Shown here piece by piece: positions 48,313 through 59,773 of a stretch of 64,000 nucleotides of DNA. The stretch is from Paraglaciecola sp. L1A13 (lineage in GTDB: Bacteria > Pseudomonadota > Gammaproteobacteria > Enterobacterales > Alteromonadaceae): the NCBI RefSeq assembly GCF_009796745.1, contig NZ_CP047024.1:3224001-3288000 (forward strand), read 5' to 3'. The translations under genes and the position numbers were made by a program. The notes below the pieces were generated by a model. The model searched no databases. It was not told the DNA's origin and saw only the letters and a list, made by a program, of their open reading frames with translations. Positions within the stretch are counted from its first letter, which is position 1; each line of letters begins with the position of its first letter.

Positions 48313-48387
48313 TTTTAACGCCACCAGCCGGGGATTTTGTGAGTGTTTTTCAATAAGTAAAATGCCCGCTGACTTGGCTTGTTATGC
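48313..48387 (-). repeat. attC-like site 1 (distal end of array)
   Basis: The left core is degenerate (TTTTAACG); the right core GTTATGC is at 48381-48387. The interior GGGGATTTTGTGAGTG...CAATAAGTAAAATGCCCGCTGACTTGG is an imperfect palindrome shared with sites 8 and 13. Confidence 0.75.
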
Positions 48388-50883: not shown

Positions 50884-50936
50884 TGCTAACGCAAAGCTAA
50901 GCGGCGCGCGTTAGCGCGTCCTTGCTTGAGCGCTTG
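50884..50936 (-). repeat. attC-like site 6, interrupted by an IS110-family element
   Basis: The left core TGCTAAC (50884-50890) and most of the palindromic interior (AGCTAAGCGGCGCGCG / TAGCGCGTCCTTGCTTGAGC) are present, but the site stops at CGCTTG (50931-50936) where GTTAG is expected. The following sequence is the left end of an IS110-family element. Confidence 0.7.
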
Positions 50937-50989
50937 TATGGATAATAACTCATGTAAATCATCCTGATTTTAATCGGGGTGAGGTAAAG

Positions 50990-51132
50990 TGAGACCCAAG
51001 CTTTAGCAGCAACTAAAGCCTTCTTTTGTGGTAGTTCGATTGATTGATGGCTCCTCAGTTGAGAGACCGATAACAAGAAAGAACGCCACAAAGGACTCCA
51101 AGCAAAACACTCGAATAGTCTACTGGGTCTCA
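50990..51132 (+). ncRNA. Candidate bridge RNA of an IS110-family element
   Basis: The 5' non-coding region of the IS110 remnant is framed by a perfect 9-bp stem, TGAGACCCA (50990-50998) with TGGGTCTCA (51124-51132). Inside are a hairpin, GCTTTAG (51000-51006) with CTAAAGC (51013-51019), and a large-loop stem, TTTGTGG (51025-51031) with CCACAAA (51086-51092). IS110 elements such as IS621 encode a bridge RNA in exactly this position, with a hairpin followed by large internal loops that pair with target and donor DNA. The large loop contains GATAACAAG (51069-51077), whose bases ATAACAAG can pair with CTTGTTAT of attC cores. Structure and position are seen; the function is inferred. Confidence 0.5.
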
Positions 51133-51164
51133 ACCCGCATTATGCAAGTAAGAGTTAGCTTATT

Positions 51165-51464
51165 ATGAATACAAAAACAAATCAAAGCGTTAACGTGGGT
51201 GTCGATATAGGCAAGTTTCAATTAGATATTTACATCCGCCCTCTCGATATTTATTTCACCGTTTCGAATGATGAAAAAGGTATCAAAGAAGCCATAAAAA
51301 TAATCAAACAACACGCACCTGGGCGCATTATTATTGAAGCAACTGGCCGATTAGAAATGCCGTTTATTATCGCATGTGCAAATGCCAATTTACCTTTCGT
51401 TGTCGCCAATCCTATTCACATTAAGCGCTTCGCTGGGGCAATAGGTCAGAAAAGAAAAAGATAG
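51165..51464 (+). pseudogene. IS110-family transposase (recombinase), truncated N-terminal part
   Basis: Only the first 99 codons of a normally 300-400 residue DEDD recombinase remain. VNVGVDIGKFQLDIYI carries the first catalytic Asp (14), and RIIIEATGRLEMPFIIACANANLPFVVANPIHIKRFAGAIGQ includes Glu58. The expected continuation with the paired Asp (KTDxxDA) and the C-terminal catalytic Ser domain is missing. The reading ends in KRKR and a stop at the junction with the IS200-like element. The element cannot move by itself. It lies at the interrupted attC site 6. Confidence 0.85.
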
Positions 51465-52809
51465 ACACCCATATTAAAAATGGTGATTTTTGTGGGCTAA
51501 ACTAGACTTGATGTGTATCTCATTTTTATCAGGTAGATGGATTATGCTTCAACCTCGAAAAAGCCAAATTAGTTTAATCGATACCCCTTATTTTATTCAC
51601 AACATCCATGTCGTTCACTTCTTCGAAGCCAGCTAAAGCTGTTCAAATTTTATTCCCGATAAATTTGTCATTGTGTTTCCCGGTGTGTGCGACGTTCTTT
51701 TTTGTGTGGAATAGATAAGTATTCTGGCCAGAGCTACGAGCATCGCCGTGGTTGGGTAGAAGAACGTTTACTGTTTTTATCTACGGTATTTTCCATCGAC
51801 ATTTGTGCCTATGCCGTCATGAATAATCACACGCATGTGGTGCTATGTGTGGATAAAGTGTTGGCTGATAATTGGGATAGCCATGAAGTGTTGAGGCGCT
51901 ACCACAAGCTACACAGAGGCACATTGCTGACCCAGAAGTTTATGAACGGCGATACGCTGAGCCAAGGAGAGCTAATCACCTTTGATGAGACCGTTGAAAC
52001 CTATCGACAACGTTTGTACGACATAAGCTGGTTTATGCGTGACTTGAATGAGCATATTGCTCGCGAAGCCAATAAAGAGGACGGCTGCACCGGTCGTTTC
52101 TGGGAAGGACGATTTAAGTCGCAAGCACTACTAGATGAAAGTGCTGTGCTAGCGTGCATGGCGTATGTGGATTTAAACCCTATCCGTGCCAAAATAGAAA
52201 AAACACCCGAAACGTCAAAATACACAAGTATAAACAAGCGAATTCATGCTGCTAAAAATCAGCAGTCACAACCAAGTGTTTTAATGCCCTTTGTAGGGAA
52301 TTCTCGTGAAGAAATGCCCAAAGGTATCGCGTATTCGCTCAAAGACTATTGTGAGCTTGTCGATACCACTGGCCGATGTATAAGGGACGATAAAGCCGGT
52401 CATATCGATAATACCCAAAACCCTATCCTACAAAGATTAGGATTAGACTCTGCTCAGTGGTTAACCTTAACCACTGAGTTCGAGAAACACTTCTGCTACG
52501 CTGCGGGCGCAGAGCAAATGATGAATGCATTTAAACGCCACACCCATCATCAACGGCTGCGAGGAATAACCAAAGCGAAAGAATTGTTAAAGCGCGCTTG
52601 AAGCAACCCTAAAGAACACATTCCATACATATCTTGTAGCCTAGTCTCTTGCCTAAGAACTGACCTCGCGCGACATTTCCTTCCTCAACGCTCAAGATTC
52701 CAGTAAAAATCTTAAATCTACCGAACCAAGATCATTCTAATTATTTTGGGGGAGTTCCAACTTGAATGTGGGTGTAATTATTACCTAAAAATTATAATGG
52801 GTGTCTATG
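51461..52809 (+). mobile_element. IS200/RAYT-like element with 12-bp inverted ends
   Basis: ATAGACACCCAT (51461-51472) and ATGGGTGTCTAT (52798-52809) are exact inverted repeats bounding 1,349 bp that contain a single Y1 transposase reading. The left end coincides with the break in the IS110 transposase. No target duplication is apparent. Near the right end a second similar motif (TGTGGGTGTAATTATT at 52768) occurs. Confidence 0.7.
51544..52601 (+). pseudogene. REP-associated tyrosine transposase (Y1 HUH), disrupted N-terminus
   Basis: The main part (from 51687) encodes a TnpREP/IS200-like transposase: HUH motif in YAVMNNHTHVVLCVD, then GRFWEGRFKSQALLDE and the catalytic Tyr in YVDLNPIRAKI. 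The typical family N-terminus is recognisable upstream from ATG 51544 (MLQPRKSQISLIDTPYF), but about 75 bp of unrelated sequence with an in-frame stop separates it from the point where CVRRSFLCG resumes. The GTG at 51687 is therefore not a natural start. The gene is probably inactive. Such transposases are abundant in Alteromonadales. Confidence 0.75.
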
Positions 52810-52924
52810 TAATTGCTTTAGATATTGTTTCGCACATAATTCAGCGAATAATCTTTCAGATGGATTTTCTTTGTTCTTTGCCAAAGCATTACCTCAATTA
52901 CACACTAGTGATTTCGCACCATCA
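52810..52924. other. Residue of an interrupted cassette
   Basis: 115 bp between the IS200-like element and attC site 7. In the array layout this would be the promoter-proximal end of the cassette whose attC is site 6. No gene remains. Confidence 0.35.
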
Positions 52925-54737: not shown

Positions 54738-54827
54738 TACTAACGCTTACAATAACGGGAAAAGCTAAGCGATAGCGAGGCTTTTTCCCAATGAGCGAAG
54801 CGAATGTTGTTGATTGTTTTGTTAGGC
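54738..54827 (-). repeat. attC-like site 10
   Basis: Cores TACTAAC (54738-54744) and GTTAGGC (54821-54827), 90 bp. The interior AACGGGAAAAGCTAAGCGATAGCGAGGCTTTTTCCC is nearly identical to site 11. Confidence 0.85.
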
Positions 54828-55178: not shown

Positions 55179-55268
55179 GCCTAACGCCTACAATAACGGG
55201 AAAAGCTGAGCGACAGCGAGGCTTTTTCCCAATGAGCGAAGCGAATGTGGTTTATTGTTTTGTTAGGC
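55179..55268 (-). repeat. attC-like site 11
   Basis: Cores GCCTAAC (55179-55185) and GTTAGGC (55262-55268) are exact complements. The 90-bp site is nearly identical to site 10. Confidence 0.88.
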
Positions 55269-56511: not shown

Positions 56512-56588
56512 ACCTAACGCTTAACATATGGGGATTTTAGGAACGCTTTTCAGCGAGTAAAATTCCCACCATGATGTTTTTGTTAGGT
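56512..56588 (-). repeat. attC-like site 14
   Basis: Cores ACCTAAC (56512-56518) and GTTAGGT (56582-56588), 77 bp. The interior is nearly identical to sites 5 and 15. Confidence 0.88.
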
Positions 56589-57056: not shown

Positions 57057-57134
57057 ACCTAACGCTTAACATATGGGGATTTTAGGAGCGCTTTTTCAGC
57101 GCGTAAAATTCCCACTATGATGTTTTTGTTAGCC
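57057..57134 (-). repeat. attC-like site 15
   Basis: Cores ACCTAAC (57057-57063) and GTTAGCC (57128-57134), 78 bp. The interior pairs GGGGATTTTAGGAGCGC with GCGCGTAAAATTCCC; same sub-family as sites 5 and 14. Confidence 0.88.
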
Positions 57135-57836: not shown

Positions 57837-58934
57837 TTAACCACTTGATATCCTCTGGACGTTAATAGAAGGCAAGGCGATTGACATCAACATCAGCACA
57901 CCTGCTTTACAAGCCGGACAGGGCCAACATTTAGCTGGTTGCTTTGTTTCATCATCGGCCTTTTGCTCTGCTAAGTCCGGTAATTGTCGTCGAATGACAT
58001 CTAATCTTTTACGCCTACAACAATTGGCTAAAAAACCAAAGTGCCTTATTCGCATCAAACCTTTGGGCAGAATATGACTGAGGTAGCGCCGAATGAATTC
58101 CTCACCTGTCAGTACCATTTTTTTATGTCGGTTATCATCAGCATAATCTTTATAGCTGAAGGTGACCTTCTCCTCGTCTATACGCTGCAATCGCGACTCA
58201 TTAAGCATGCCTTTTTTCGTATAACGCCCCAGATAACGAATGACCGTTTTGGGCTGACATAAACAGGGTTTGCTATACACAGACCACGGTTTACTCATCA
58301 GCAACTGCGCTTGGGGGATGACCAACTCATATGCCCTTAGTGCCGCCAACATCTTTGCCCTGAATACGGTGGATAACGCCTTCACGGGAAATAAATACGC
58401 CTTCTTTACGCCTCGCCAGTGTGTCTTTGCATCCACGGCCCCACCGGGAATAAGACAATGCAGGTGAATATGTTGCGTTAAGGTTTGCCCCCACGTGTGC
58501 AGCATCGCTGTCATACCCAGTTGACCCTTGAGTGTTTTGCGCGACATCGCAAACTGACTCAACGTTGCCCACACAGCCTGAAACAGACTTTTGTACAGTT
58601 TTTCTGGTGCATACTGACTTATCACATTTAACTCATGGGGCAAGGTGAACACCAGGTGGAAGTATTTACAGGGCAGCACATTCGCCTGTTGCTGCTCAAC
58701 CCATTGCTCGGTTTGCCTGCCCTGACAACGGGGGCAGTGCCTGTCCCGACAAGAACAATACACCACCTTCTCAAACGAACACGCCCCGCATCGACACTGC
58801 TGCATGCCTAGTTGCCCCGTTCGGCAATCTGTAATATGCCGGCATACCTTATCTTGTTGATAACTGAGCGTATGATGTTGTCGATACGCAGGCAGGAATT
58901 GCTGCAGCACATCCGCCACATGCAGAGCACTCAT
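57837..58934 (-). CDS. IS91-family Y2 HUH transposase
   Basis: A 365-residue rolling-circle transposase. A zinc-binding N-terminus (CRCGACSFEKVVYCSCRDRHCPRCQG) is followed by KYFHLVFTLPHELN, the HUH motif in QHIHLHCLIPGGAV and the two catalytic tyrosines in VIRYLGRYTKKGML (five residues numbered Y-x-x-x-Y). Two tyrosines place it with IS91 rather than ISCR. A second zinc-finger-like CPACKAG lies near the C-terminus. The start ATG 58934 overlaps the stop of the recombinase gene upstream (ATGA), indicating coupled translation. Elements of this type move single-stranded and can carry off adjacent DNA. Confidence 0.9.
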   Translation of the reverse strand: MSALHVADVLQQFLPAYRQHHTLSYQQDKVCRHITDCRTGQLGMQQCRCGACSFEKVVYCSCRDRHCPRCQGRQTEQWVEQQQANVLPCKYFHLVFTLPHELNVISQYAPEKLYKSLFQAVWATLSQFAMSRKTLKGQLGMTAMLHTWGQTLTQHIHLHCLIPGGAVDAKTHWRGVKKAYLFPVKALSTVFRAKMLAALRAYELVIPQAQLLMSKPWSVYSKPCLCQPKTVIRYLGRYTKKGMLNESRLQRIDEEKVTFSYKDYADDNRHKKMVLTGEEFIRRYLSHILPKGLMRIRHFGFLANCCRRKRLDVIRRQLPDLAEQKADDETKQPAKCWPCPACKAGVLMLMSIALPSINVQRISSG

Positions 58935-59773
58935 GACACACCTTCCCAATCGGCCATTAAGTCTTGGGCACTATTATTCAATTCAGGTAACCAATGCAAA
59001 TAGGTTTGTGTGGTGCGAATATCCACATGCCCTAACTGCTGTTGCAGTTGATTCAGCGGCATCCCGCTTTCCAATTGGTGGGTCGCATAGGCATGGCGTA
59101 GACTGTGAATACTGCACTTCTTACTTAACCCAGCCAGCTTCACTGCTTCACGAAAGGCTTTTTGCACGGACGTAGCGCCCACCTGAAACTCCATGCCCCG
59201 GCTGGAATAAAACAACCAATCCGTCGCCCGAAAATGTAACCAATAGCCGCGTAACACATGCAATACAGACTCAGTGAGTACCACATCTCTGTCTTTATTC
59301 CCTTTCCCATTGTGAATGCGTAACGTCTTACGTGCCCGGTCAATGTCCTCTACTTTCGCATGCACCAATTCGTTGAGGCGCAGCCCACAACCATAATAAA
59401 CCTTCAACATGGTGCGGTACTTCTCATGACGACAGTGCGCCACTATCTGTTTTACCTCCACTTTAGATAACAATGTAGGAATACTGCGTGGTCGTTTAGG
59501 CCAGACAATATCAATAGAAAACGTGCGCTTAAGCACATATTTGTAGAGGAAATGAATGCCATTCAACTGCAAATGGATGGTGGCACTTGACAATTCACGC
59601 TCCAAACTCAGTGAACGAAAGTACTGTTCTAGTTGCTCGTCACTGATAGTGTCGGGGGATTGGTGATAATACTTGGCTAGTTGCGTAACAGCATAAAGAT
59701 AACTGTCACGAGTGCGCTCTGAATAACCTCTGAGCTTACACTCATCGATCAGCGCTTGACGTAAAGGGGTCAT
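58931..59773 (-). CDS. Tyrosine recombinase associated with the IS91-family element
   Basis: A 280-residue XerC/D-like site-specific recombinase. A SAM-like N-terminal domain (1-90) precedes the catalytic domain with Arg132 (GCGLRLNEL), the HxxR pair His223/Arg226 (SIHSLRHAYATHQ), His249 (LGHVDIRTT) and nucleophile Tyr258 (TYLH). A subset of IS91 elements carries such a gene just upstream of the transposase. It lacks the extra helical insert expected of integron integrases between the second and third catalytic boxes, so I do not call it IntI. The role in transposition is unknown. Confidence 0.88.
   Translation of the reverse strand: MTPLRQALIDECKLRGYSERTRDSYLYAVTQLAKYYHQSPDTISDEQLEQYFRSLSLERELSSATIHLQLNGIHFLYKYVLKRTFSIDIVWPKRPRSIPTLLSKVEVKQIVAHCRHEKYRTMLKVYYGCGLRLNELVHAKVEDIDRARKTLRIHNGKGNKDRDVVLTESVLHVLRGYWLHFRATDWLFYSSRGMEFQVGATSVQKAFREAVKLAGLSKKCSIHSLRHAYATHQLESGMPLNQLQQQLGHVDIRTTQTYLHWLPELNNSAQDLMADWEGVS

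Follow-up and report, generated by a model that had tools for sequence, protein, structure and literature searches.

Bridge RNAs of IS110 insertion sequences (IS) are already known, as is the targeting of the integron recombination site attC by elements of the IS1111 group, in which the RNA lies downstream of the gene. For the IS110 group the position of the RNA, the lengths of the element ends and the order of the guides are taken here as given in PMC11187229 and PMC11208160, the former placing the bottom-strand match 5′ of the top-strand match. The window analysed here, a stretch of 64,000 nucleotides (nt) of the Paraglaciecola sp. L1A13 genome, contains an attC site interrupted by a non-coding leader and the beginning of an IS110 recombinase gene. 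Comparison with related sequences indicates that this is very probably the left remnant of a gammaproteobacterial clade of IS110-group elements which homes to one end of attC, guided by a bridge RNA in the leader.

Relatives of the element and their insertion sites

Full-length relatives with proteins of 316-324 amino acids and the same ends were found in 18 named genera, mostly marine. Scanning the genome contigs yielded 57 distinct loci; the 18 named genera range from Paraglaciecola, Alteromonas and Shewanella to Vibrio and Photobacterium, and more loci came from a genome search. Members of the clade are already catalogued in sequence databases by name: the proteins named ISPtu2, ISSwp5, ISSpi5 and ISShwo3 are 87-89% identical to that of L006 and probably belong to the same clade. 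A total of 134 leader matches were read and two more were skipped for lack of a usable left end; removal of duplicates gave 95 rows, and after six with missing or ambiguous left ends had been dropped (L038, L043, L060, L080, L111 and the second L015) 89 were retained. The left-guide test was made on 87 of these 89, the flank test on 87 and the arm test on 86, while the donor, handshake and right-guide tests were made on the 69 rows whose right end was found by pattern (L011 not included). Guides were read from alignment columns.

The element ends recur among the relatives. Each of six identical copies in G006 has a left flank of its own, and all six share the exact ends CTTG/TATGG and CTCTTG/TTA; the right flank begins with GTTA in 64 of the 69 rows with a readable right end. 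A check on full-length relatives, as proposed in an earlier note on this DNA, located the guide at the corresponding position and showed most insertion points to be attC-like. The attC left box (AACG with flanking bases) was present 30-145 nt to the left of the insertion in 49/87 flanks compared with 819/5000 random windows (16%), and the fold-back of the right arm exceeded that of 400 control windows (p = 6e-15, 86 sites). A second copy of the target flank occurred in the same locus in 11/39 cases and in 10/228 control windows. Read by eye, as a matter of judgement rather than testing, the 86 readable flanks comprised 65 attC sites, three partial sites (L082, L097, L100) and 18 that were not clearly attC (L008, L009, L011, L015, L036, L039, L047, L056, L067, L069, L070, L104, L110, L120, L121, L122, L123 and L124), L008 being one of the six G006 copies. 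On the left L110 and L124 have the box GTTCAACA, and on the right L123 has GTTGAAC; these shorter, palindromic sites with ends of the GTTCAAC/GTTGAAC type may represent another type of attC, and the three elements share the left guide core ATCCTTAT. By eye the sites of L039 and L047 are not attC-like, yet their left guides match 8 and 9 of 9 positions, and the two are candidates for guide-directed off-target insertion.

Proposed guides in the leader and its predicted fold

The predicted bridge RNA segment (50988-51135) folds at -48.8 kcal/mol (z -4.77), with 0/200 shuffles as good. Across 27 aligned leaders, 97.1% of the cells of the structure that we specified are paired, 12/32 pairs have compensatory changes on both sides, and the covariation score of 0.245 is higher than in 500/500 shuffles (mean 0.106) and in all slid versions (0.069 at most). 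The minimum-energy fold contains the closing stem (50990-50998/51124-51132) and the 7-bp hairpin (51000-51006/51013-51019) that the earlier note had drawn, and also its large-loop stem, which starts at 51022 and is longer than the 7 bp then claimed. The sequence ATAACAAG was correctly placed at 51070-51077, inside the 54-nt loop 51032-51085, and is the right target guide; as had been reported, two attC sites, near 48379 and 48902, have its complement CTTGTTAT at their right ends. By our own arithmetic the chance of a fixed 8-mer in the 54-nt target loop is about 47/65536, and variation among the relatives is stronger evidence than such a match. The one guide that had been seen is thus joined by the left target, left donor and handshake guides, which had been missed, bringing the number to at least four (Table 1). 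Six of the 58 distinct leaders (L014, L016, L024, L031, L034 and L053) have an extra segment of ~14-16 nt 3′ of the closing stem, and in four of these six it contains ACCGGTNACCGG.

The left target guide, 12 nt long, lies in the target loop on its 5′ side. Its agreement with the element's own target averaged 4.55/9 positions in 87 elements, compared with 3.87 after shuffling (standard deviation 0.11), and 0/5000 shuffles were as high; for the 44 distinct guides the values were 4.80 and 3.75, and for the 40 with distinct guides and targets 4.50 and 3.53 (0/5000 in both). Matching peaks at registers 0 and -1 (4.55 and 4.82) and is at most 2.5 in the other registers tried, which suggests that two spacings of the attC arm exist. 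All nine positions match in L011, L036, L047, L065 and L110, and 6/9 in the window copy in strict register. The agreement of left guide and target is a real but modest effect. Most insertions lie in attC sites, many of which the left guide matches in part only; this is also in keeping with a protein that recognises the folded attC hairpin, the RNA guides merely contributing, an explanation which we consider unlikely in view of L011, L036 and L047, whose sites are by eye not attC-like and whose left guides match 9/9.

The right target guide fits GTTA in 64/69 elements. Exceptional junctions are informative here: the right junction of L036 reads ATTA and its guide matches, and that of L011 reads CTT, three bases which its guide fits as well. 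The sites of both are not attC-like and their target loops are changed to fit, which does not hold for all other non-attC sites; in L151 the guide does not follow its exceptional junction. The core was placed at TT because in L011, L036 and L151 the base on the left is G and that on the right is not, and the same junctions assign G50936 of the window to the end of the element. Over 7 nt the left donor guide is identical to the right end of the element in 64/69 elements (0/5000 shuffles). Counted by base, 478/483 are identical compared with 429 in shuffles, and the variable seventh base agrees in 65/69 with all four letters occurring. The handshake dinucleotide fits the right end in 57/69 elements, as against 25.8 in shuffles (maximum 38, 0/5000), and the element's own left target in 12/86. 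This position is named after IS621, and a fit to the right end and rarely to the own left target is the non-cognate pairing described for that element (PMC11208158). A leader that lies directly upstream of a gene, and that can form the alternative hairpin GGGT/ACCC, might instead be a structured 5′ region that regulates the transposase gene in cis, its attC likeness being chance or a relic of the flank; the agreements with target, right end and handshake, which stand in bridge-RNA registers and are each beyond 5000 shuffles, make this highly improbable.

Joining the element ends gives TTGACG or TTGACA, 17 bp and GATAAT in 59/69 elements. A promoter score of at least 10/12 was reached at the joined ends in 61/69, and in 1/68 integrated copies scanned with the left flank replacing the right end. 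Judged by these motifs the joined ends form a near-consensus promoter, and the IS110/IS1111 families are known to have a promoter where the ends of the circle meet (PMC11187229). For the bridge-RNA reading we propose that an intact element would circularise and that the promoter at its joined ends would transcribe leader and recombinase. The folded leader would act as the bridge RNA, with its target loop reading the attC arm through the left guide and TT-GTTA through the right guide, and its donor loop reading the element's own ends. Strand exchange by the recombinase at the TT core would then leave the element with a cassette gene on one side and the body of that gene's attC on the other.

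Several results weigh against homing to attC by such a bridge RNA. In the arm test only 30/86 sites exceed the 95th percentile of the controls, 28/39 target flanks are without a nearby second copy, and the 18/86 sites that are not clearly attC by eye have been listed above. The mean left-guide fit covers only about half of the 9 positions, and the own target stands on average at the 38th percentile among 70 targets, so that most left guides would appear to be generalists fitting attC arms in general. The elements are moreover related, and the shuffles overstate their independence. Misfits occur for the right guide in L003, L040, L110, L123 and L151 and for the donor guide in L010, L056, L061, L107 and L151, and the right donor guide is a weak, unproven candidate read from the aligned leaders. 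Finally RNAalifold, unaided, chose the local GGGT/ACCC hairpin over the closing stem, and because of this choice the two may compete.

The interrupted attC site and its surroundings

The left box of the interrupted site, GCTAACGC, starts at 50885, and the site continues to CGCTTG ending at 50936, directly followed by the IS left end TATGGATAATAA from 50937. This arrangement of an attC stopping at CGCTTG, a leader and an IS110 N-terminal part is as the earlier note had described it, and the protein assignment is borne out by the match of the 99-codon open reading frame (ORF; 51165-51464) to PF01548, the IS110 DEDD domain, of which it covers the N-terminal portion (32 bits against a cut-off of 29). 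The leader is non-coding as claimed and measures 228 nt instead of 227. The final ~15 nt of the ORF do not belong to IS110: at ~51449 the DNA similarity with full-length relatives stops (best match: query position 513 of 528), and this break adjoins an inverted-repeat arm at 51450-51477 with its partner at 52792-52819. Because IS110 similarity ends there and a RAYT-like unit begins at 51450, the right part of the element and the remainder of the attC are missing, and since most of the recombinase and the right end are gone the window copy should be inert, a fossil of the clade. Insertion guided by RNA, which the earlier note had proposed for this copy, is supported for the clade and would extend to the window copy, whose right junction is lost.

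Table 1. Positions in the window of the interrupted attC site, the IS110-group remnant with its predicted RNA and guides, and the adjoining unit.
Feature	Position	Strand	Basis or remark
Left part of interrupted attC, ends CGCTTG	50885..50936	+	core TT 50934-50935
Leader, left non-coding end of IS110-group element	50937..51164	+	alignment with leaders of relatives
Predicted bridge RNA fold	50988..51135	+	minimum-energy fold and covariation; predicted RNA ends
Left target guide CGATTGATTGAT	51037..51048	+	sense of left target, up to first T of core
Right target guide, ATAAC and core complement AA	51070..51076	+	fit to right flanks of relatives
Handshake guide GA	51077..51078	+	pairs with the dinucleotide preceding the core in the right end of the element
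Right donor guide, weak candidate TCCAAGCA	51097..51104	+	our reading of aligned leaders
Left donor guide ATAGTCT	51115..51121	+	matches right end of relatives
N-terminal ~95 codons of DEDD recombinase	51165..51449	+	rest of gene and right end missing
Repeated unit with RAYT-like ORF (51687-52601) and 28-nt inverted arms	51450..52819	+	adjoins break in IS110 gene

The DNA search found one more copy of the remnant stretch in the same genome, at 928 kb and with 74% identity, and the protein search found further family fragments at 86, 977 and 2146 kb; no intact family member was among the matches listed in either search. The possibility that an orphan RNA serves a family recombinase at another place in the genome was also considered, and only fragments of the family were found there. 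Rfam at gathering thresholds gave no match in the window. When the 40 distinct guides were compared with the 11 attC arms of the window, the guide of the 928-kb remnant ranked first, with 9/9 against the arm that ends at 57132, whose 9 bases recur in the site ending at 56586; the window guide shared second place, with 8/9 against arm 54825 in register -1. Guides of the L044 and L049 types, from other genera, also reach 8 against window arms, and the fit of guides to the attC arms of their own host is suggestive only. The 11 sites are very diverse in alignment (42% mean column identity); those at 54739-54827 and 55180-55268 are successive and nearly identical.

The 28-nt arms of the RAYT-like unit are 75% complementary, and its ORF matches the REP-associated tyrosine transposases weakly (34.8 bits, cut-off 80). 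The unit has 23 matching places in the genome, itself included; the copy at 2.556 Mb is 95% identical over 1359 nt and lies ~3 kb from an integron-integrase match. At G000 3175790-3179148 (L002, L158, L164) one copy of a two-copy IS1111-type element, with an 11-bp subterminal repeat and ~330 nt of non-coding sequence downstream, was observed a few hundred bases from another copy of the RAYT-like unit. The other two PF01548 matches in the window's genome belong to an element present in two copies, in which the non-coding region follows the gene. The tyrosine recombinase at 58931-59773 of the window was rejected as IntI, scoring below the integron-integrase cut-off, and since the two matches above that cut-off are at 2.53 and 2.56 Mb the window array would be far from IntI. 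An ORF beside this recombinase (region 57837-59773) looks IS91-like.

Comparison with known attC-targeting and bridge-RNA elements

The recombinase of L006 matches DEDD with 72.1 bits and Transposase_20 with 64.4 bits; of the first domain the window remnant retains just the N-terminal portion, and of the second nothing. In complete relatives the leader is ~206-244 nt long and the right end lies ~20-30 nt after the stop codon. The left target guide is 5′ of the right target guide, corresponding to a bottom-strand match before a top-strand match, and the subterminal repeat TATGG/CCATA is 5 bp, between the values given for IS110 (2-3 bp) and IS1111 (7-17 bp). The earlier note had cited the attC-targeting IS1111 group as the parallel, whereas this anatomy, with the RNA upstream and the bottom-strand match first, is that of the IS110 group. 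The elements of that IS1111-attC group (ISKpn4, ISPst6, ISPa25, ISPa21) are likewise RNA-guided and likewise occupy one end of attC (PMC11187229, PMC11616780); their RNA is downstream, the top-strand match is 5′ of the bottom-strand match and the repeats are 7-17 bp; in the window and the aligned relatives the RNA is upstream instead, and the guide order is the opposite one. It is hardly credible that the element is an ordinary member of that group, given the upstream RNA, the short right end, the guide order, the 5-bp repeat and the BLASTP values of three clade members, E 1e-30 to 1e-33 against IS621 compared with no match (L006) or about 1e-7 (L011, L013) against the genome's own IS1111-type protein, a closeness that is a hint and not a tree.

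In PMC11616780 the abstract has IS110 disrupting attC and the text names ISPa21 of the IS1111 group, and PMC9229058 has IS110-family insertions in Shewanella integrons and, in the part consulted, reports no IS interrupting attC. On ISPtu2 and ISSpi5 the consulted part of PMC11915797 gives abundance only, and a target site of ISPtu2, ISSwp5, ISSpi5 or ISShwo3 was not seen in the portions consulted of the open-access papers searched. Target logos for over 300 ISfinder elements are given in PMC11187229, whose supplements may include members of this clade; within this limit, attC targeting by the IS110 group with its upstream RNA was not seen in the consulted portions of the open-access literature searched.

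Integron cassettes move through attC, and a widespread RNA-guided element at the gene-proximal end would be expected to immobilise cassettes and to separate genes from the sites at which they recombine. Class C-attC group II introns consist of a ribozyme and a reverse transcriptase and have no DEDD recombinase. Like the clade they are RNA-based elements inserted at attC (PMC9229058). We lean towards the view that attC homing by bridge RNA evolved twice, the second time in the IS110 group, that the left guide diversifies with the attC arm types of the hosts, and that the guides record a long chase between parasite and integron; IS110- and IS1111-group elements would then be converging on one target. 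In the clade dozens of guide-target pairs occur naturally, redirected ones among them, and the pairing code, the core and the handshake bases can be read from these pairs far from IS621, the clade's recombinase having ~29% protein identity to that of IS621. With IS621 and ISEc21 the clade has in common the DEDD and Transposase_20 recombinase, the upstream RNA, a target loop with left and right guides, a donor loop, a dinucleotide core, handshake pairing and a promoter at the joined ends. Unlike them it targets the end of the integron attC, and its core is TT and not CT.
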